Source: Pirellulaceae bacterium (GTDB lineage Bacteria; Planctomycetota; Planctomycetia; Pirellulales; Thermoguttaceae). Taken from it: a stretch of 45,092 nucleotides of DNA. This document shows, piece after piece, positions 12,054-23,316 of this stretch; positions within the stretch are counted from its first letter, which is position 1, and every line of letters starts with the position of its first letter. The stretch is taken from the NCBI GenBank assembly GCA_012744395.1, contig JAAYCB010000452.1, forward strand, positions 1-45,092, given 5' to 3'. The notes under the pieces were generated by a model that saw only the letters and a list, made by a program, of their open reading frames with translations, was not told the origin of the DNA and ran no database searches. The position numbers and the translations under genes were made by a program.

Positions 12054-13850
12054 ATGGACGTTCGGATTCTTCGCATTCTGGCGGCGGCTGGGCCGCTGGC
12101 GATTCTGCTGGGCGGCGGATGGCGTTTGGCCGAGGCGGCCGCGCCCGCGGAAGCGCCCCGGCAGGGTGTCGCCGTGCGGATTCTGCCCGCTCCGTTCAGC
12201 GGCAACCCAGCGCCGCTCGGCGCTCCCCTGGAGCGGCTGCCGGGCGCGCTGCCCAGGCCGCTTTCGGGATATCCGTTGCTGGAGGCGGAAACGGCTTGCG
12301 TTGCCCTTTCGCCCGACCGGGGGAACTTGACCTTCTGGACGCGCCGCGCGGGGCGATTGACGCGCCGCGGCGAGATTGCCCTCAGCCGGGCGGCCGGGCC
12401 GGCGCGTTTCCAACTCGTGGCCGATCCGCGGCAAGGGGTGGCCGTTGAAATCGGCGTTCCGGGCGGAGAGCAGGCACACACGATTGCGCTCTCGCCGGAT
12501 GGAATCCTCGAAATCCGGCAGCCGCCGGGAGCGACCGTCACGGTCCGCAGTCCGCTCCGCTATGCCCTGGCGCCCTCGCTGGTCGGCACCGACTTGCTCT
12601 ACGATCCTTCTCGTGGGATGGGTCTCCAGGCCCGTCCGCAGGTTTTCGTTGACGGCCAGGCCTACGTGCCATCGCTCGGCATGGTGGTCGGGCTTGGAGC
12701 GGGGGGCGACGGGATGCTGGTCGGAGTCTGGCCGCGCGGCAACCAATTGGTCCGGCTCGCCGTCGGCGAGCAGGGCGACCGCCCCACGATCGAGTCGCTG
12801 GCGATCGACACCGATGGCAAGAGCTTTTACGTGGCCTTTCTCGATCAGCCGGGCATCTGGCACGAGGAACCGCTCCGCGACGCGTACCTGGAGACCCATA
12901 CGGCGATCGGCTGGCGGCGGCCTTTCGACGCCCGCTGGATCGGCCGGTTCTTCATCGACTCGGATGGCTACGGCTTTCCGTTCTATTTCCTCAGCGAGAA
13001 GCAGAAGCTGTGGGGGCGCTGCATTCGCGGTTGGTTCGAATATCCCGTTTGGTTCGATGGCGACCGGACGATGGTTCACTTCGAAAAGAAATTCCCGCCC
13101 AAGGGGATGCTGCTCGTTTACTTTCTCGACACGTACGGGCAGGGCGGCGCGCCGCTCTCTCCGGTCGCCGTGATGCAGGAGTCGCTGGGCGAAGCGGAGG
13201 CCGACCAGTTGCTGGATTTCGACGGCACGCAGGAGCAAGTCCTGCTGGAACACCGCAACGCCGTCTGCGCGATGACGGCCAAGATCGAAGCCTACTTTGC
13301 CAAGGAAGCCAGCGCGCCGGCGCGGGAGGAAATCAAGCAGTACGCCGACGACGTGTCGACATTCATCCGCCTGATCCGCGAGCGGGTTTTCGAGTTCGAG
13401 CGGTTCGCCGCCGCGATGGAGAAATGGTTGAAGACGGAAACGGCGGGGCGGCCGGCCGTGGCGGCCGACCTCGAGCCCTGCGAGGAGATTCTCGCGGAGA
13501 TTCGCGAGGTCGCCGCCGAGCTGCCCAAGACGTCGCTCGGCGAGGTCCGCGATTGGACCGAGCAGCTGAAGACGCTCTCGGCCGGCGACAGGGAAGAGAA
13601 TCTCGCGCTGGCCAAGAAACTGACCCAGAAGTGCCGCTCCGTCGCGGGGACGCAAGACGACCTGGCACGCAACCTGAGCGTGGCCGCGATCCGGCTCATG
13701 GAAGAGGCCGCATGGATGGGCGCGCGTTCGCCCGACCACGTTCGGGTGGCGGAAAGAATGATCGACGACTGCCGCGGCATTCTCCGCAAGCCGACCTGGT
13801 GGGAGCCATGCCGCAAGTACCTGCCCAAGAGCAATCCGGGCGCGCCGTGA
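12054..13850 (+). CDS. secreted protein of unknown function, helical C-terminus
   Basis: I do not recognise this 598-residue protein. It has a signal peptide (about residues 1-30, hydrophobic core LAAAGPLAILLGG). A beta-rich middle (about 100-390) includes aromatic-rich strands such as FYFLSEKQKLWG and WFEYPVWFDGD. A charged, mostly helical C-terminal third (about 400-570) contains EILAEIREVAAELPK and LALAKKLTQKCRS. Four Cys lie in the last 170 residues, perhaps forming disulfides. The ATG at 12054 is preferred over an in-frame TTG at 12030 because GGGAGC precedes it and it begins the signal peptide. It lies between the acyltransferase operon and a SUMF1 lipoprotein gene on the same strand, so an envelope role is likely but unproven. 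Confidence 0.75.
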   Translation: MDVRILRILAAAGPLAILLGGGWRLAEAAAPAEAPRQGVAVRILPAPFSGNPAPLGAPLERLPGALPRPLSGYPLLEAETACVALSPDRGNLTFWTRRAGRLTRRGEIALSRAAGPARFQLVADPRQGVAVEIGVPGGEQAHTIALSPDGILEIRQPPGATVTVRSPLRYALAPSLVGTDLLYDPSRGMGLQARPQVFVDGQAYVPSLGMVVGLGAGGDGMLVGVWPRGNQLVRLAVGEQGDRPTIESLAIDTDGKSFYVAFLDQPGIWHEEPLRDAYLETHTAIGWRRPFDARWIGRFFIDSDGYGFPFYFLSEKQKLWGRCIRGWFEYPVWFDGDRTMVHFEKKFPPKGMLLVYFLDTYGQGGAPLSPVAVMQESLGEAEADQLLDFDGTQEQVLLEHRNAVCAMTAKIEAYFAKEASAPAREEIKQYADDVSTFIRLIRERVFEFERFAAAMEKWLKTETAGRPAVAADLEPCEEILAEIREVAAELPKTSLGEVRDWTEQLKTLSAGDREENLALAKKLTQKCRSVAGTQDDLARNLSVAAIRLMEEAAWMGARSPDHVRVAERMIDDCRGILRKPTWWEPCRKYLPKSNPGAP

Positions 13851-13880
13851 GGAGGCGTGCCGGGCGGGCCCGGCCTCTCC

Positions 13881-13898
13881 GCCTGGCGTCCGCCAGGC
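13881..13898. other. GC-rich hairpin downstream of the unknown secreted protein
   Basis: GCCTGGCG and its exact reverse complement CGCCAGGC are separated by 2 nt, in a GC-rich 182-bp gap. No U-tract follows, so an intrinsic terminator is doubtful. It could be mRNA-stabilising or simply intergenic GC structure. Confidence 0.35.
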
Positions 13899-14032
13899 CA
13901 GTCCGCGAGGAGTGCTCGCCCCCGGAGGGGCCGGAGGGGAGCGTTCGATGCTGGCGGCGAGCCGATTTTTTTGATGGCATTCAGCGAGAGCGTTTCGCCG
14001 CCAAACCTGATGGATACGAGGTAGAACAAACC

Positions 14033-14905
14033 ATGCGACCAGGATCCTCTGCGTTGACTCTTGTTGTGGCGCTCGCGGCGGCGTGCGGCTGCGTCGAGCG
14101 GCGGCAGGCCGCGCCCGGCGGCCCGCCGCACCCGAACGAATCGCCAGCGGCCGAGTTGCCGGCCGAGATCGTCACGCCGAGCGGCGCCGAGATGGTGCTG
14201 GTTCCCGGCGGCCGCTTCACGATGGGTAGCCAGGCCCAGCGCGACGCCGGTCCGCCCCACGAGGTGACGATCAGCCCCTTCTACATGGACTGCTACGAGG
14301 TGACGCAGGATCTCTACCAGCGGCTGATGGGGCAAAACCCTGCGCGGCGAACGGGCGAGAAGAACCCCGTGGAACGGGTCCGTTGGACCGACGCGCTGAA
14401 GTTCTGCAACGCCCGGTCCGCCGCCGAGGGGCTGACGCCGTGCTACGACCTGGCCACGCGGGCCTGCGATTTCGCCGCCGACGGCTACCGTCTGCCGACC
14501 GAGGCCGAGTGGGAGTACGCCTGCCGCGCGGGAAGCAGCGGCGACTACTACTTCGAAGGCGGCGCGGAGCAGCTCGGCGACTTCGCCTGGTTCCGCGAGA
14601 ATGCCCGGCGCAAGCATCACCCGGTCGGAGAGAAACAGCCGAATGCCTTCGGCCTCTACGACATGGCCGGAAACGTCCGCGAGTGGTGCAACGACTGGTA
14701 TGCGGTCGACGCGTACTCCGCGGAGCCGCGCAGCGATCCGCGCGGGCCGTCCACCGGCGAGAAGACCGTGCTTCGCGGCGGCGCGTTCTCCGGTTCGGCC
14801 GAGACCTGCACGAGTTGGGCCCGCTATTGCGACGAGCCGGGCTTCACCGATGCCTGCGTGGCGTCGGACGACTATGGTTTTCGCTGCGTCCGACGGGCGA
14901 AATAA
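14033..14905 (+). CDS. SUMF1-domain (formylglycine-generating-enzyme-like) lipoprotein
   Basis: This 290-residue protein has a lipoprotein-type signal (hydrophobic core LTLVVALAAAC, Cys18 or Cys20 as the lipidation site). One SUMF1/FGE-sulfatase domain runs from about residue 45 to the end: GGRFTMGS, DCYEVTQDLYQRLMG, YRLPTEAEWEYACRAG, GLYDMAGNVREWCNDW, VLRGGAF and a terminal GFRCVRRAK. It is a close paralogue of residues 37-275 of the fusion protein at 7285 but ends normally. Both lack an obvious sulfatase neighbour. Many bacterial proteins of this family are not formylglycine generators, and the paired active-site Cys of true FGE (near the C-terminus) is not clearly present, so a non-enzymatic or different role is possible. 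Confidence 0.88.
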   Translation: MRPGSSALTLVVALAAACGCVERRQAAPGGPPHPNESPAAELPAEIVTPSGAEMVLVPGGRFTMGSQAQRDAGPPHEVTISPFYMDCYEVTQDLYQRLMGQNPARRTGEKNPVERVRWTDALKFCNARSAAEGLTPCYDLATRACDFAADGYRLPTEAEWEYACRAGSSGDYYFEGGAEQLGDFAWFRENARRKHHPVGEKQPNAFGLYDMAGNVREWCNDWYAVDAYSAEPRSDPRGPSTGEKTVLRGGAFSGSAETCTSWARYCDEPGFTDACVASDDYGFRCVRRAK

Positions 14906-15543: not shown

Positions 15544-16677
15544 ATGACCGGCGAAGCGACATTTCCTGGTGGTGTCTTCAGCGAGAGGATCGATGACGGC
15601 CGGGCAGGGGCCGAGATCGAGCTTTCCGTCGCTGGTGTCCGCGCTCGCACTCCCGACGGCGCGGAGTTTCTTCTCCCCTATGCGGAGTGCCGGCTCGAAA
15701 TCGGTGGAGCCAGCGGGAGAATGATCTTCTGCCGCAATCGGGACCGCAGCCTGACGATCTTCTGCGAGGAACGCACCTTCGCCGATGCGCTTTCGCGGGC
15801 CTCCGGCGGGCTGCTTTCCGAATCGCTTGGCGAGCTTCTCGCGGCTCGCCGCCGCGAGAGCCGCCGCGGGTGGTGGATCGCCGCTTCGTTGGCCCTGGGG
15901 ATCGCCGCTCTGCTGGTGGCCGGCTTCTGGGGCGTCCGCGTCGCCGCCCGAGCCGCCGTCCACGCGATGCCGGTCGCCCTGGACGAGAAGATCGGCGAAC
16001 TGGCCCTGAAATCGATGGACCTCGGAGGCCCGGAGGTTCACGACCCGCTGGTCGTCGGCGCGCTGCAAGCGATCGTCGATCGGCTGGCGCCGCACGCCGC
16101 CGTCTCCGGGCTCGAGTTCCGGCTCCGCGTGGTCGACGCGCCGATCGTCAACGCCTTTGCCCTGCCCGGCGGGCCGATCGTGGTCTATACCGGCTTGATC
16201 GGCAAGGCCGCGGGCGCCGAAGAGGTGGCCGGGGTGATCGGGCACGAAATGGCCCACGTCACCGCGCGGCACGGCCTGGAGCGGATCGCCGATTCGGTGG
16301 GCATCGTCACCGCCGTCCAAATCCTCGTCGGCGACACGCAGGGGCTGGTGGCTTTCGGCGCGGAGCTGTTCACCCTGGCGTCGGTCAACAGCTACAGCCG
16401 CCGGCAGGAGATGGCCGCTGACGAGGAGGCGGTCCGCATGCTCCATGCCGCGGGAATCGACCCCGCGGGGCTGGCCAGGTTTTTTGAAGTCCTCGACCGG
16501 GAGCAGGGCGATCTGCCGAGCGCCGTCTCGTGGATCAGCACCCATCCGCAGAACCAGGCGAGAATCGCCCAGATCCGCGGCCGGCTCGCCGCGCTCGGCG
16601 AGCCGTCCTATCAACCGCTCGCCGTCGATTGGGCCGAGGTGCGGCGGCGGGCGGCGGGCGGCGGCCAAGTGGAATAG
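15544..16677 (+). CDS. M48 family zinc metallopeptidase, membrane anchored
   Basis: This 377-residue protein has a small N-terminal beta domain (about 1-100, of the type seen before M48 peptidases), one membrane helix (about 109-132, WWIAASLALGIAALLVAGFW), and an M48 catalytic domain. The zinc motif is HEMAH (His234, Glu235, His238), with the third ligand probably Glu289 in RRQEMAADEEA. NAFALPGGPIVVYTGL is the usual substrate-groove strand of BepA/LoiP-like enzymes. Such peptidases act in envelope protein quality control. The gene leads a same-strand run with three AIM24 genes, the first starting 46 bp after its stop, which suggests co-expression. Confidence 0.92.
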   Translation: MTGEATFPGGVFSERIDDGRAGAEIELSVAGVRARTPDGAEFLLPYAECRLEIGGASGRMIFCRNRDRSLTIFCEERTFADALSRASGGLLSESLGELLAARRRESRRGWWIAASLALGIAALLVAGFWGVRVAARAAVHAMPVALDEKIGELALKSMDLGGPEVHDPLVVGALQAIVDRLAPHAAVSGLEFRLRVVDAPIVNAFALPGGPIVVYTGLIGKAAGAEEVAGVIGHEMAHVTARHGLERIADSVGIVTAVQILVGDTQGLVAFGAELFTLASVNSYSRRQEMAADEEAVRMLHAAGIDPAGLARFFEVLDREQGDLPSAVSWISTHPQNQARIAQIRGRLAALGEPSYQPLAVDWAEVRRRAAGGGQVE

Positions 16678-16723
16678 CAGGAACACCAACGGCCCAGCCG
16701 GGGCCGATTGCCGTGGGAGATCG

Positions 16724-17383
16724 ATGATGGAAGCGGAAATCCGCAACAAGCCGTCGTTCGCCAATCTTCGTCTCCAGCTGGCGCGGGGCGATCGTCTGAT
16801 CGCCGAGGCCGACGCGATGGCCAGCATGAGCGCGGCGATCGAGATCAAGACGCGCTGGAACGGCGGGTTCGCCAAGGCGGTGCTCAAGCGGGTCTTCGGC
16901 GGCGAGTCGCTGTTCGTCAACGAGTTCTCCACCGATTCGGAAGGGGAACTGGTTCTGACCCAGCCTTTCCCGGGTGATATCGAGTGCATCGAACTGAAGG
17001 GCAACACCCTCTTCTTGCAGCCGGGGGCGTTCCTTGCCTGCGAGCCGGGCGTGAAGCTGGGGCTGGGCTGGGCGGGCTGGCGGAGCTTCATCGCCCGCGA
17101 GGGCCTCTTCCGGCTCAAGGTCAGCGGCAGCGGCCATGTCTGGTTCGGCGCCTATGGCGGCATCTTCACCCGCGAGATCGGCGAGGAGTACATCGTCGAC
17201 TCGGGCCACCTGGTGGCCTACGAACCCTCGATCCGGATTCGCATCGGCATGGCGGGCGGCGTTTTCACGAGCTTCTTCAGCGGCGAGGGCCTGGTGACGC
17301 GCGTCGGCGGACCCGGCCGGATTTATATGCAGTCGCGGTCGTTCGGCGGCCTGGCCGCCTGGGCCAATTCGCACCTGTATTGA
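16724..17383 (+). CDS. AIM24 family protein, copy 1 of 3
   Basis: This 219-residue protein belongs to the AIM24/TIGR00266 beta-sandwich family (double-stranded beta-helix trimer fold). Signatures are MASMSAAIEIKT near residue 30, VFGGESLFVNEF, the repeated turn FFSGEGLV, and IVDSGHLVAYEPSIRI. There is no signal peptide. The family is widespread; yeast Aim24 supports mitochondrial inner-membrane organisation, while the bacterial members are uncharacterised. Two ATGs (16724 and 16727) are adjacent; GGGAGA at 16715-16720 is spaced better for the second. The gene follows the M48 peptidase closely and precedes two paralogues. Confidence 0.88.
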   Translation: MMEAEIRNKPSFANLRLQLARGDRLIAEADAMASMSAAIEIKTRWNGGFAKAVLKRVFGGESLFVNEFSTDSEGELVLTQPFPGDIECIELKGNTLFLQPGAFLACEPGVKLGLGWAGWRSFIAREGLFRLKVSGSGHVWFGAYGGIFTREIGEEYIVDSGHLVAYEPSIRIRIGMAGGVFTSFFSGEGLVTRVGGPGRIYMQSRSFGGLAAWANSHLY

Positions 17384-17507
17384 ACCAGGCGCATCCCGGC
17401 GCTTCCTTAACACAAATCGACAACCATCCACAAAACGGACTTGATTCCGTTTACCGTGCGACAATCGGCTGACCACCGGCACTCCACCCCCGTTCGGCCC
17501 ACCCGCC

Positions 17508-18191
17508 ATGCAATACGAAATCCTCTCTCGGCCCGCGGCATCCGCTGCGAAGTTGACGCTCGATGCCGGCGAATCGGTGACCTGCGAAGTCGGCGCGATG
17601 ATCGCCATGTCCGCCGGGTTTACCGTCGAGACCACCTCGCGAAAGAAAGGGGGCGGCGGCGGGCTGATCAAGGGACTCAAACGGATTCTCGCCGGCGAGA
17701 ACCTGTTTCTCAACCATTTCACGGCCACCGCGCCCAACCAGACGCTAATCATCGGGCCGGGCCTGCTCGGCGACATCATCCACCACCCGATGAAGGGAGG
17801 CACCGTCGTCGTCCAGGGGTCAAGCTGGCTCGCCTCGGGGATCGGTATCGACATCGACGCCACCTGGCAGGGGCTGGGCAAGGCCCTGTTCAGCGGCGAA
17901 CGGATGTTCTGGGTCAAGTGCAGCGGGTCGGGCGACCTGTTCCTGAACAGTTTCGGCGCGATCTACCCGGTCGATGTGGCCGGCGAGTACGTCGTCGACA
18001 CGGGGCACATCGTGGCGTTTGAGGACACGCTCCAGTTCCACATCGGCAAGGCCAGCAAGAGCCTTGTGGGGAGCTTCCTCGGCGGCGAAGGGCTGGTCTG
18101 CAAGTTCAGCGGGCAGGGGAGGCTCTATTGCCAGACCCACAACCCGCCCAATTTCGGAAAACTCCTCGGCCCCAAACTGAAACCTCGCTAG
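17508..18191 (+). CDS. AIM24 family protein, copy 2 of 3
   Basis: This 227-residue AIM24-family protein begins MQYEILSRPAASAAKLTLD, which is the canonical start of the family. Later motifs are VGAMIAMSAGFTVETT, a Lys/Gly-rich loop (KKGGGGGLIKGLK), LAGENLFLNHFTA, YVVDTGHIVAFEDTLQF and FLGGEGLVCKFSGQGRLYCQT. It is closer to the third copy than to the first through the IVAFEDTLQ segment. It has no signal peptide or membrane helix. A 124-bp gap separates it from copy 1, so it may have its own promoter, though none is clear. Molecular function is unknown. Confidence 0.9.
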   Translation: MQYEILSRPAASAAKLTLDAGESVTCEVGAMIAMSAGFTVETTSRKKGGGGGLIKGLKRILAGENLFLNHFTATAPNQTLIIGPGLLGDIIHHPMKGGTVVVQGSSWLASGIGIDIDATWQGLGKALFSGERMFWVKCSGSGDLFLNSFGAIYPVDVAGEYVVDTGHIVAFEDTLQFHIGKASKSLVGSFLGGEGLVCKFSGQGRLYCQTHNPPNFGKLLGPKLKPR

Positions 18192-18206
18192 CCCCAGGTG
18201 GCGGAG

Positions 18207-19118
18207 ATGACGATCGAGTTCCTCTGCGGATCGTGCCAGAAGCATTACCGCGTGAAAGACGAGCTGGCCGGCAAGCGGGCGAAATGCCAGCAGTGCGGTG
18301 CAACGATCGAGATTCCCGTCCCGCCGGCGGTCGATCCCCAGGCGGAGGCGGCCGCCCCGCTCTCGCCCACAGCGCCCCCCAGACCGGTCGGAATGCCTTC
18401 GTCGTCGGAGAACATCCGCGGCAGTGGAGATTTCGAGTTCGAGATCAGCCAGCGCCCCGATTTCGCCCTCGTCACGGTCAAGCTCCAGCCGGGGCAGAAG
18501 GTCTTCGCCGAACCGTCGGCAATGGCCTCGATGGATCCTTGCATCACGCTCCAAGCCGGCTTCAAGGGCGGGCTGAAGAGGACTTTGGGGCGGGCCCTCG
18601 GCGGCGAGAGCCTGATCATCAACACGTTCACGGCAACCGGTGCTCCGGGCGAGGTCACCTTCGCCGCCGGCCAGCCCGGCGACGCCGCCCACTACCGGCT
18701 CAAGGGGGGCGCCCTCTATCTCCAGCGCGGCGCGTTCATGCTCCACGGCGAAGGCGTCGACCTGACCGGCAAATGGCAAGGCGCCAAGGGGTTCTTCAGC
18801 GGCGAAGGCCTCGTCCTGCTCAAGGCGTCCGGAAACGGCGACCTGTTCTTCAATTCCTACGGCGCGATCCTCCCGGTCGACGTGACCGACCAGTACATCG
18901 TCGACACGGGCTACATCGTCGCCTTTGAAGACACGCTGCAATACCGCGTCAGCGTGCTCCCCGGCCTCCGCGCCGGCGGCACCTTGAAGACCCTGTTCTT
19001 CGGCGCCGAGGGGCTCGTCTGCCGATTCTCCGGGCAGGGCCGGGTGTGGATCCAGACGCGCCACGTGCATCCGTTCCTGGCCTGGGTCAATCCCTTCCGC
19101 CCGGCAAAAAGCAACTGA
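18207..19118 (+). CDS. zinc-ribbon AIM24 family protein, copy 3 of 3
   Basis: This 303-residue protein begins with an MJ0042-like zinc ribbon (CGSCQKHYRVKDELAGKRAKCQQCG, residues about 8-32, quoted here as two CxxC knuckles around a basic loop). A Pro-rich linker (to about 70) and an AIM24 domain follow: MASMDPCITLQAGFKGGLK, GGESLIINTFTATG, FFSGEGLVLLKASGNGD, YIVDTGYIVAFEDTLQY and GLVCRFSGQGRVWIQT. Such ribbons are common at the N-terminus of planctomycete proteins. The start is ATG 18207; a GTG nine bases upstream is an alternative. Only 15 bp separate it from copy 2, so the two are probably cotranscribed. Confidence 0.9.
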   Translation: MTIEFLCGSCQKHYRVKDELAGKRAKCQQCGATIEIPVPPAVDPQAEAAAPLSPTAPPRPVGMPSSSENIRGSGDFEFEISQRPDFALVTVKLQPGQKVFAEPSAMASMDPCITLQAGFKGGLKRTLGRALGGESLIINTFTATGAPGEVTFAAGQPGDAAHYRLKGGALYLQRGAFMLHGEGVDLTGKWQGAKGFFSGEGLVLLKASGNGDLFFNSYGAILPVDVTDQYIVDTGYIVAFEDTLQYRVSVLPGLRAGGTLKTLFFGAEGLVCRFSGQGRVWIQTRHVHPFLAWVNPFRPAKSN

Positions 19119-20559: not shown

Positions 20560-21216
20560 TTCAGGCAATCCTGGAGACCGCCCCGGTGTTTCGGCAGACA
20601 ACGACAACCGCGCGGCACGCCGCCCAACGCGCTCGGATAGAACGCCTGGCAGGATGTCAATGTAAAATGCAGGGACTGCTGCTGCAACATCGATTGAAGT
20701 GCTTTGCGGTCCGTTCGGGGCCGGTGAACCAGGCATGCTGGAAACGCATCGGGCGAGGCCGCGGCGGAGCGGAGGTCTCCAAGTCCGGAAAACGGCGCGC
20801 CCTCCGGCCAAGATTGGATGGCCCGGATAGAGTGGGAGGTTGGCCTCAGGCACCGCCCCCACACTCCGCTGCGCAGCCCCCCCGGGTCGATTCGCCGCCA
20901 TCGGTGGCCAGGTCCTTGCCTGAGATGTGCTGCCTTCGCCAGGCTGCCCCGTTCCGGCCAGTCTGCCAAAAGGCGTCCAGATTCTCCGATTGGCCTTCTT
21001 TGGCCTCAACCAATCCGCGCGACAGCCGACGCGCCGCCCCGAGCGGCCCGAGGGAGGCACTACAATTGGTCTTTCGCTGAACGCTGGATTCTGGTACTAA
21101 CGCGACTCGCTGTCGGCAGTTCTTGCGCGCCGGCCTGCGTCTGTTTGCGAACGTGCCTTGCGGACCGTGCGACCTCCCGTCGAGCCGTTTCTGTCCGTTT
21201 TTGGGGAACCCGATTG
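20560..21216. other. 657-bp gene-free divergent region
   Basis: This region lies between the divergent genes at 20559 (minus) and 21217 (plus). No protein family was seen in any frame. A TACAAT hexamer at 21061-21066 is a possible -10 but has no convincing -35. Promoters for both neighbours are expected here but could not be fixed. Confidence 0.55.
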
Positions 21217-23316
21217 ATGAAACGCCTCCTTCTTCGAATGTCTGCGCTGGCTGCCATCATCGTTTTGGGGTTGATCGCGATTGCCCAGGCGCAGCGTAGC
21301 GGTGATCCGAGTCCGTCGCCGGCCGCGGGCTCCCCTTCGCGGGGGTTTTCCGTGCCGGAGGCGAATCCACTGCGATCGCCCTCTCCGATCCGCACGGCTG
21401 CGGCCTCAAACCCGGTGCCAACCGTCGGGAGCCGGCCTGGATCGCCGGCCAGCGCGGGTCGGGCGCCCACCCAGAAGAGCAGCGGTTTTTCGTTAGGCAA
21501 CGCGACCGACACCGGCATCGCGCCGATCCTCACAGCGCCTGCCGAAGCGCCGCACGTTTTGCCGTCGGCTGCCGCCCCGACCGAGTCGATCGCTGATACG
21601 GCGGCGCCCGCGGCGAATTCGATTCCACCCATCTCGCCGAATTTCGGCACGATGCCCCCGGCAGCCGAGCAGCCGCCGTCCGCGGCGCCGCGGACGGCAG
21701 CGGGCCAACAGCCCAGCGCCAACGGTCCGCCGATCGCCGCGGCGCCGGGTCTCTCGACCCTGCCCCAATTCGGCGGCTCCACTTCGGAACCGGGCCTGAT
21801 CCCCCAGCCAGCCGCCTCGCCGCCCCCCCAGCCGATCCAGGCGCTCGCCGATTCACCGCCCGGCGCGCAGCCGACACACCTGGAATCGTCCGGCCTGGGG
21901 CAACCGGCCACCGGCAATGGCCGGCCGGGCACAAAGAGTCTTGAAGGGGCCCAAGTGCCCCAATTGGTCGTTGAGAAGACCGCCCCGGCGGAAATCCAGG
22001 TGGGGCGTCCCGCGATCTTCCAGATTCACGTCCGCAATGCCGGACAGGTGGCCGCCTTGGGCGTGGAAATCCACGACGAGATTCCCCGCGGCGCGAGGCT
22101 GCAAAGCGCCAAGCCGCAGGCATCGCAGAGCGCGCAGGGTGGACTTGTCTGGGAAATCGGCACATTGAACCCCAACGAGGACGTGACGGTCGAAATCGAG
22201 TTGATGCCCACCGATGAGGGCGAAATCGGCAGCGTGGCGACCGTGCAATTCCAGACGGAAGCCTCGGTGCGCGTCAAGGCGACCCGGCCGCTGTTGGCCA
22301 TCGAAACCGAGGGCCCGGAGAAGGTCCTCAAGGGCGAACAGGTCGCGCTGAAGATCACGGTCTCGAATCCGGGCAGTGGAATCGCCGAAGACGTCGTCGT
22401 CGAAGAACACGTCCCGGCCGGGTTCCGCCATGCCGCGGGCGCCGAATTGGAGTACGAGATCGGCAACCTTGCGCCGGGCGAGAGCCGCGAACTGGAACTC
22501 GCCTTGGAGGCCGTCCATGCCGGTCCGCTGGTCAACGTGATCACCGTCCGGGGCGAACCGAACCTGCGGACGCAGAACCAGAAATCGATTGAAGTCATCG
22601 CACCCCAACTGCAAGTCGCCGTCGAGGGGCCGAGCCGCCGCTACCTGGAGCGCGAGGCGGTCTACAGCCTTTCCGTCCGCAATCCCGGCACCGCCCCGGC
22701 CCGGCAGGTGGAGATGGCCGTGGAATTGCCGCCGGGAATGAAGTTCGTCAGCGGGTCGAACCAGGCATACTACGAGGAAGACACGCGGACCGTCCACTGG
22801 AAACTCGAAGAAATCCCGGTTCAGGACGGGCCGCCGCCGGTCCAGTTGACCTTGATGCCCGTCGAGGCGGGGCAGCACACCCTGCGGCTCGTCTCGTTCG
22901 ACAGCAGCGGCGCATCGGCCGAGGTGGAACAGGCCGTCGTCGTCGAAGGCATCTCCGCCCTGTTCTTCGAGGTCGCCGACATGGACGATCCGATCGAGGT
23001 CGGCGGCCAGACGATGTACGAGATTCGCGTCGTCAACCAGGGTTCGAAGGAAGCCACGAACGTGCAACTCGCCGCCGAACTGCCGCCGGGCCTACAGCCG
23101 GTCGCCGCCGAGGGACCGACGCGCCACGGGATCGAATCCGGCCGCGTGGTCTTCGCACCGCTGCCCCGACTGGCCCCCAAGGCCGACACCACCTACCGGA
23201 TCCGCGTCCAGGGCGTTCAGCCGGGAGACCTGCGAATCAAGGTCCAGGTCGTGACGGACGAGATTCGCACGCCGATCACCAAGGAAGAGAGCACGCGGGT
23301 GTACGCGGACCAGTAG
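21217..23316 (+). CDS. secreted DUF11-repeat protein
   Basis: This is a 699-residue protein. A signal peptide (about 1-25, SALAAIIVLGLIAIAQAQ) is followed by a Pro/Ala/Ser-rich low-complexity stretch (about 26-245). Four immunoglobulin-like DUF11/CARDB-type repeats start near residues 248, 360, 465 and 581. Each carries a segment such as VRNAGQVAALGVEIHDEIP or VRNPGTAPARQVEMAVELP, which is the hallmark N-x-G ... P-x-G turn. Proteins of this type are cell-surface or cell-wall structural components. There is no C-terminal anchor. GGGGAA lies 8 nt before the ATG. Proline-rich regions of this kind often span an envelope layer, which is inference here. Confidence 0.88.
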   Translation: MKRLLLRMSALAAIIVLGLIAIAQAQRSGDPSPSPAAGSPSRGFSVPEANPLRSPSPIRTAAASNPVPTVGSRPGSPASAGRAPTQKSSGFSLGNATDTGIAPILTAPAEAPHVLPSAAAPTESIADTAAPAANSIPPISPNFGTMPPAAEQPPSAAPRTAAGQQPSANGPPIAAAPGLSTLPQFGGSTSEPGLIPQPAASPPPQPIQALADSPPGAQPTHLESSGLGQPATGNGRPGTKSLEGAQVPQLVVEKTAPAEIQVGRPAIFQIHVRNAGQVAALGVEIHDEIPRGARLQSAKPQASQSAQGGLVWEIGTLNPNEDVTVEIELMPTDEGEIGSVATVQFQTEASVRVKATRPLLAIETEGPEKVLKGEQVALKITVSNPGSGIAEDVVVEEHVPAGFRHAAGAELEYEIGNLAPGESRELELALEAVHAGPLVNVITVRGEPNLRTQNQKSIEVIAPQLQVAVEGPSRRYLEREAVYSLSVRNPGTAPARQVEMAVELPPGMKFVSGSNQAYYEEDTRTVHWKLEEIPVQDGPPPVQLTLMPVEAGQHTLRLVSFDSSGASAEVEQAVVVEGISALFFEVADMDDPIEVGGQTMYEIRVVNQGSKEATNVQLAAELPPGLQPVAAEGPTRHGIESGRVVFAPLPRLAPKADTTYRIRVQGVQPGDLRIKVQVVTDEIRTPITKEESTRVYADQ

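Follow-up and report, generated by a model that had tools for sequence, protein, structure and literature searches.

A cassette of four genes, an M48 metallopeptidase gene followed by three AIM24 genes, occupies positions 15544-19118 of one strand of a 45,092-nucleotide stretch of DNA from a Pirellulaceae bacterium (GenBank assembly GCA_012744395.1, contig JAAYCB010000452.1, positions 1 to 45,092; hereafter the window). The gene content and gene order of the cassette are deeply conserved among bacteria, and its AIM24 genes, here called AIM24-A, AIM24-B, and AIM24-C, are three old paralogues. We propose, with about even confidence, that the products of the four genes form one membrane-associated complex, in which a ring on the membrane surface anchors and controls an envelope protease.

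Results

The Cassette Recurs across Bacterial Phyla

The genes of the cassette were assigned by Pfam and NCBIfam profile matches and all lie on the forward strand. The first (15544..16677) encodes a membrane M48 metallopeptidase of 377 residues, which we call PH-M48 (PF01435, E=1.2e-34, 120.2 bits against a cut-off of 20.3), and it is followed by AIM24-A (16724..17383; PF01987, E=4.6e-61), AIM24-B (17508..18191; E=2.8e-62), and AIM24-C (18207..19118; E=2.5e-59). The three AIM24 proteins score 201-211 bits on PF01987 against a cut-off of 25.7, span profile positions 1 or 2 to 205 of 205, and also match TIGR00266. Their pairwise identities are 33% (A-B), 41% (A-C), and 44% (B-C); the Pfam matches and these identities confirm an initial annotation of the window, which had described an M48 peptidase with three tandem, diverged AIM24 genes. 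The 6.17 Mb assembly has no AIM24 match beyond A, B, and C, and two further M48 family matches lie elsewhere in the genome. In a control set of 14 genomes that includes E. coli, no AIM24 match is listed for E. coli. The AIM24-C open reading frame (ORF) opens at GTG 18198, but ATG 18207 is the more likely start because it agrees with the MIEF or MIEI start of the relatives.

How widely is this arrangement conserved? An alignment of 15 B proteins was run against genome contigs, a retrieval in which M48 played no part, and the best 80 of 547 relatives were kept as loci (L numbers below denote loci, G numbers genomes, and C numbers contigs). Three tandem AIM24 genes or pieces are present at 77 of the 80 loci, the other three being cut by contig ends, and an M48 gene lies upstream at 71 of them in ten named phyla, so that the conservation of the cassette, which the initial annotation had left to be checked, is upheld. 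The M48-linked loci belong to Planctomycetota (28), Pseudomonadota (17), Verrucomicrobiota (8), Bacteroidota (6), Myxococcota (3), Spirochaetota (3), and Bdellovibrionota (2), with one each from Acidobacteriota, Lentisphaerota, Thermodesulfobacteriota, and an unclassified bacterium; these ranks were taken from the records' own names, and some bins may be misnamed. For example, the contigs of L154, L180, and L188 are labelled Akkermansia muciniphila or Chryseobacterium gleum with dated isolate codes, and we guess that these may be misnamed bins. Cultured strains also carry the cassette with its M48 gene, among them Rhodopirellula rubra (L121), Gilvimarinus polysaccharolyticus (L181), Alcanivorax sp. 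DG881 (L167), and Mucilaginibacter aquatilis (L189). A scan of viral contigs with B gave no relative.

The genes are tightly packed. The M48 gene lies at most 564 nt from the A domain in 69 of 70 measured loci (1,522 nt in L151), and the median gaps to the AIM24 domain start are 15 nt for M48-A and 19 nt for A-B. Five loci (L127, L146, L162, L174, and L188) reach the end of their contig before the M48 position; in the genome of L188, an M48 gene followed by a cut A gene stands at another contig end, a case of the cassette running across a contig break. Among the nine genomes without M48 on the contig, near-full PH-M48 matches are found in those of L188 and L197, the latter unlinked. Clustering of neighbouring genes revealed no recurrent fifth gene in more than 7 of the 80 loci, with the widest cluster in mixed positions; this clustering used mechanically chosen ORFs of at least 100 residues, and small or overlapping genes could escape it.

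A, B, and C Are Three Old Paralogues

All four proteins are sufficiently complete for comparison at 63 of the 80 loci, giving 64 cassettes with the window. In a FastTree phylogeny of 265 AIM24 domains, which leaves out L036-L039 and L057, A, B, and C fall into three separate clades (64 of 64 in each case; supports of 100, 98, and 95), and each cassette contributes one A, one B, and one C, in that order. A second, diverged type of A-B-C triple is found at 13 loci (L027, L070, L073, L074, L080, and L082-L089), 12 of which have no M48 nearby, and its A, B, and C proteins also form clades in this tree. A smaller IQ-TREE phylogeny, built without the broken B of L011 and without hits below 180 bits (e.g., the truncated A genes of L074 and L078), recovers these three positions, with the two types separated in parallel. 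C forms one group in it, with a support of 76, and A and B require two label changes each because distant single copies intermix and L077, a basal locus, is left unresolved.

Correlation of the distance matrices of the four proteins gives r values of 0.82-0.88 (0.77-0.85 without Planctomycetota), and a joint tree of the four proteins follows the phyla, with 9 label changes against a minimum of 8. Because the matrices correlate and the joint tree follows the phyla, these comparisons indicate that the cassette is old and has largely been inherited as a block. The three clades mark A, B, and C as old, distinct subunits. Since they are three obligatory, non-interchangeable paralogues of a family that has been modelled as trimeric, we infer by analogy a composition of one A, one B, and one C per ring. 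The conserved cassette, the three clades represented once per cassette, and a protease predicted to have a single membrane pass and a cytoplasmic domain are what a hetero-oligomer working with the protease, as first suggested by the initial annotation, predicts.

The M48 Link Is Mainly a Property of One AIM24 Subfamily

Is M48 a partner of AIM24 proteins in general? M48 is found beside none of 36 single-copy AIM24 loci, for 30 of which the flank available was about 1.5 kb or less, and beside one of the 13 second-type triples. On these counts we reject a general AIM24-M48 partnership. M48 is present at 6 of 10 first-type or basal Planctomycetota loci, and one of the four misses (G103) is a further case of a cassette across a contig break. 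With single copies and second-type triples mostly lacking an adjacent M48, the link appears to be mainly a property of this AIM24 subfamily and not of AIM24 overall. Scattered AIM24 copies without M48 in relatives, which the initial annotation had named as contrary evidence, largely fail to appear among the 80 loci retrieved with B.

Of 14 further stretches that were fetched, we analysed L200, L208, and L209. At L200 (G216:C320), outside the control set of 36, a single AIM24 gene is followed by M48, and at L208 (G228:C238) M48 lies downstream of a second-type triple; these other arrangements hint that AIM24 and M48 may have come together on more than one occasion. Eight neighbours of M48 relatives without nearby AIM24 were also scanned; two hold DUF3754 (L094 and L095) and two FAA_hydrolase (L093 and L097).

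Across 40 genomes (the window's own and 39 relatives), the cassette has a patchy distribution in its own family. The same M48-A-B-C order is found in G015, and in G018 as well, there with a broken B on a short contig. This B gene (L011, G018:C569, 624-1315) is broken between two reading frames on its contig of 3.2 kb, by sequencing error or by decay. The same-genus genome G001 has C only, at a contig end, and G016 has a diverged AIM24 triple with no visible M48 on a 3.8 kb contig.

A broader sample of the phylum (392 genomes) contains AIM24 in 136 genomes. Twenty of its loci, picked because they looked like tandem AIM24 loci, all hold three AIM24 genes or pieces, with an incomplete first AIM24 gene in L074 and L078 and an interrupted third match in L089; M48 lies directly upstream in four of them (G059, G090, G096, and G182) and downstream in one (G228). 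This sample overlaps with the B scan (L149 is the G059 locus and L152 the G018 locus). An M48 relative (E<=1e-25) is present in 25 of 35 genomes with at least three AIM24 genes versus 15 of the 357 others, and by family in 10 of 14 versus 8 of 96. AIM24 counts per genome were read by hand, and the figure by family assumes 110 families, taken from the highest label, and carries no correction for kinship. Long open frames had hinted at natural AIM24 fusions, a candidate that we rejected: the ORFs are separate where inspected (G015 and G059).

The Protease Has a Predicted PH-Like Domain and a Predicted Membrane Helix

The AlphaFold model of PH-M48 (mean pLDDT, the model's confidence score, 90.5) contains an N-terminal domain that the initial annotation had overlooked. 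In residues 1-96 (15544..15831), seven strands (E6-13 to E70-74) are followed by a helix (H79-86), and the model has the seven-stranded sandwich closed by a C-terminal helix that is expected of a PH superfold domain. VIA-align matches this segment to many PH, PTB, and FERM domains at Z 6.8-8.3, in the tool's range for what is possibly a mere common arrangement; among the matches are the PH domains of SPT16, Lam6, ASAP1, and CERT (Z about 7-8.3). The sole Pfam match of the window's protease is M48 at residues 172-347. Among 68 members, no Pfam family beyond metallopeptidase models is found in more than 5, except eCIS_core (10 of 68) and BSP (6 of 68), models that we take from their names to be peptidase-like; the positions of Pfam matches are known for the window's protease only, and not for these counts.

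Hydropathy predicts one transmembrane helix at residues 112-130 (15877..15933), so that the membrane peptidase of the initial annotation is more precisely a predicted single-pass protein with a cytoplasmic domain. Lysine plus arginine content is higher before than after the helix in 66 of 68 relatives, with one tie, and because more positive charge precedes the helix, the PH-like domain is predicted to be cytoplasmic and the catalytic domain periplasmic. These relatives come from an alignment of the window's protease with 67 of the 71 M48 rows; three short rows and one with X letters were left out.

The catalytic domain (residues 143-375; 15970..16668) superimposes on 3c37 (VIA-align Z 25.0) and on BepA (6ait; Z 23.5). 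H234, E235, H238, E289, and D293 are invariant in the 68 rows; the HExxH motif (residues 234-238; 16243-16257) was required for calling M48, so its invariance is not independent, while E289 and D293 were not required. The PF01435 match and the HExxH...E zinc site place PH-M48 in Peptidase M48. Its best NCBIfam hits are BepA (NF052400, 97.2 bits) and LoiP (NF052399, 71.9 bits), far below the curated cut-offs of 570 and 365, respectively.

Candidate Membrane-Contact Loops in the AIM24 Domain

The model of AIM24-B has the fold of 1YOX (Z 23.7 over 192 residues) and 1PG6 (Z 23.0 over 212 residues). Its stretches of lowest confidence, residues 46-63, 123-131, and 186-192, fall on or beside three highly conserved GE-loops, with the invariant residues G63-E64, E131, and G193-E194-G195. 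Ahead of the first GE-loop, A, B, and C each have an amphipathic, cationic stretch (median helical-moment percentile 0.96-1.0, net charge +2.3 to +3), as measured on the 39, 31, and 32 of 64 rows that fit a simple motif. In 1YOX, which consists of six chains of one sequence, the chains resolve only 186-209 of 250 residues, so parts of AIM24 are disordered in the crystal as well. Our guess, by analogy, is that the GE-loops form a membrane-contact face. Yeast Aim24 would fit such a reading: it is bound firmly to the inner membrane although it has no predicted transmembrane segment (PMC3975624).

In an alignment of the window's AIM24-B with 61 of 77 B rows, the M48-linked B proteins carry Cys198 and Cys208 (each at least 90% conserved) and an invariant His211 around a GxG turn (residues 198-211; 18099-18140 in the window). 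This set is absent from the consensus of A, C, and single-copy AIM24, and it is a possible metal or redox site specific to B.

The N-Terminal Module of AIM24-C Varies with Lineage

The initial annotation had described the three AIM24 copies as differing in their N-termini and the third as bearing a zinc ribbon. C alone is extended, A and B being bare AIM24 domains, and the extension varies by lineage (77 loci, sorted by simple motifs). In the window it is a four-cysteine zinc ribbon, CxxC-x16-CxxC (residues 10-33; 18225..18296), which matches Zn_ribbon_4 at 18 bits, under the cut-off of 30.3; that of the relative L120 is barely above it at 30.5 bits. The zinc ribbon is found in 8 of 30 Planctomycetota, the other 22 having none. 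Verrucomicrobiota have a GYF type in 8 of 10 cases, and Pseudomonadota have another extension in 16 of 17, one of which (L153) is GYF-like by eye; in other phyla the extension is very short or lacking. Among seven C proteins run on Pfam, GYF_2 exceeds its cut-off in three, two from Verrucomicrobiota and one from the Planctomycetota locus L079, the zinc ribbon is confirmed in L120, and of three from Pseudomonadota, one has no match and two have sub-threshold matches to the ribosomal L7/L12 C-terminal domain. The latter two (L172 and L187) resemble fusions of AIM24-C to an N-terminal domain of that kind. Because the module of C changes with lineage, being exchanged or absent elsewhere, we regard the zinc ribbon, to judge from these sequences, as a decoration and not a core part of the cassette; it probably serves in recruitment.

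Within the window, 638 bp separate the cassette from the preceding ORF, which ends at 14905, and the opposite strand carries a long ORF after the cassette; the cassette therefore appears to stand alone. The preceding ORF, FGE-sulfatase-like (13010-14905), and a DUF11-repeat protein (20818-23316) are apparently unrelated to it.

Discussion

What might the products of the cassette do together? We propose that one A, one B, and one C build a heterotrimeric, TRAP-like ring that lies against the inner membrane from the cytoplasmic side and would touch the bilayer through its conserved cationic and hydrophobic GE-loops. The protease would be anchored by its one helix, with the OMA1/BepA-type M48 domain in the periplasm and the PH-like domain docked either to the ring itself or to that same lipid surface. 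By localising the protease, the ring could couple the state of the membrane to the cutting of envelope proteins and so act in envelope or membrane quality control, while the exchangeable N-terminal module of C could recruit further, lineage-specific partners. We infer the composition of the trimer, its contacts with protease and membrane, the control of cutting, and the substrates from gene content, models, and analogy.

Several observations weigh against this proposal. Conservation of an operon can reflect co-regulation instead of contact, and, since second-type triples mostly stand alone, an AIM24 ring would seem to need no protease at hand. L150, L163, L197, and L198 have no adjacent M48; only partial PH-M48 matches occur in the genomes of L163, L198, L174, and L127, and none at E<=1e-20 in those of L150, L162, and L146, all of these genomes being draft bins; the outcome lends the link no support. 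M48 relatives also occur without AIM24 within about 1.5 kb (L093-L117 and L119, L114 apart; e.g., G233:C37 and G269:C367). In the phylum sample, just 7 of the 25 genomes with both at least three AIM24 genes and an M48 relative show M48 beside AIM24, and the genome counts are phylogenetically non-independent. In 7 of the 25, moreover, M48 aligns only from about residue 93 on, and the PH-like domain is therefore unsupported there. When both types of triple are pooled, B forms one clade, and two changes each are required for A and for C. Finally, the proposed membrane-contact loops lie in low-confidence parts of the model, and the PH-like match, at Z 7-8, possibly reflects just a common arrangement of strands and helix.

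Some of these points are shared by a rival reading, in which the AIM24 trio is a membrane scaffold in its own right that serves respiratory complexes or lipid domains, and the protease, though co-expressed with the trio in response to the same stress, does not bind to it. The 12 of 13 second-type triples and all 36 single AIM24 loci that lack an adjacent M48 are consistent with it, as is yeast Aim24, which is linked to MICOS, to cardiolipin, and to respiration phenotypes in a report whose excerpted text names no protease (PMC3975624). Shared regulation would not by itself lead one to expect the same kind of protease at 71 of 80 loci in ten named phyla with nothing else widely recurrent, a pattern that argues for a closer link, and we regard an independent scaffold as somewhat unlikely. 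A second rival holds that A, B, and C are each homotrimeric, with three rings that stack or act at different steps. Homo-oligomers are possible in a family in which single-copy members are widespread and 1YOX shows six chains of one sequence, but the composition of strictly one of each, in order, across phyla, and a copy number equal to the modelled stoichiometry of the trimer are more simply explained by a mixed ring; separate homotrimers thus strike us as improbable.

AIM24/TIGR00266 genes have been reported beside ter genes, terD among them (PMC5822837, citing Anantharaman 2012), which raises the question of whether the cassette belongs to a Ter-type metal or stress response. The window's genome has no TerD family match, which contradicts such a link here, and no neighbour is widely recurrent over the 80 loci, so that we consider a Ter role highly improbable. 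The commonness of tandem paralogues and the patchiness of the cassette in its own family might suggest that the genes are adjacent by chance or through local duplication within a single lineage. This reading is refuted by the retrieval with B alone, the order kept in ten named phyla, and the three deep clades, and its probability is negligible.

The proposed ring-protease complex can be compared with known systems. A, B, and C match the AIM24 family (yeast Aim24, Arabidopsis PAWH1/2, 1YOX, and 1PG6) over its full length, and the B model has the same fold; the cassette differs in combining three old paralogues and a protease in one operon, with lineage-specific modules on C. To our knowledge, no eukaryotic AIM24 member is paired with an M48 protease. 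PH-M48 resembles BepA and 3c37 in the structure of its catalytic domain and differs from BepA and LoiP in its N-terminal PH-like domain and single helix, its AIM24 operon, and its scores below their curated cut-offs. FtsH-HflKC and NfeD-stomatin are protease-scaffold pairs, and we liken the cassette to such protease-plus-scaffold systems: the logic would be the same, with an oligomer at the membrane surface that binds a membrane protease or is encoded alongside it, although the cassette differs from them in both its protease family and its scaffold family. Ter stress systems share AIM24 with the cassette and are set apart by the missing TerD. OMA1 is grouped in M48C. In this M48 protease of mitochondria, the catalytic domain lies on the intermembrane-space side (PMC10078952). 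PH-M48, membrane-anchored with its M48 domain predicted on the far side, is like OMA1 by layout only.

AIM24 proteins are found in all domains of life, and PAWH1/2 are members of the Hrd1 complex of endoplasmic reticulum-associated degradation (ERAD) that were modelled on 1YOX/1PG6 as homotrimers with a flat ring surface (PMC6677890). Yeast Aim24, whose C-terminus lies in the matrix or in the membrane, is part of a complex of about 400 kDa (PMC3975624). The eukaryotic parallel, PAWH1/2 in the Hrd1 complex on one side and OMA1 on the other, is suggestive; we claim no direct Aim24-OMA1 contact. A bolder version of our proposal, which we hold to be doubtful, would make the cassette an ancient membrane-surveillance machine of bacteria in which the A:B:C ring senses the state of the lipids or bilayer from the cytoplasmic face and, through the PH-like domain and the helix, activates an OMA1-type protease across the membrane, as a counterpart of the Aim24 and OMA1 functions that are separate in mitochondria.

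The component families are known, and the four-gene unit appears to be undescribed in the open-access literature: our searches of it, with subscription journals outside their scope, returned no description of an M48-A-B-C unit, no paper with both AIM24 and M48, and no use of the phrase 'AIM24 family protein'. On bacterial AIM24 itself, the excerpted sources offer a tellurite gene context, two crystal structures, and a statement of no known function; in 2019 the physiological function of the bacterial members was called entirely unknown (PMC6677890). A fixed and deeply conserved partner makes this function directly testable, with one protease, three subunits, and one operon. Should bacterial AIM24 serve as a platform for membrane proteolysis, this would suggest a common thread with Aim24 at the mitochondrial inner membrane and the AIM24 proteins of plant Hrd1 ERAD.

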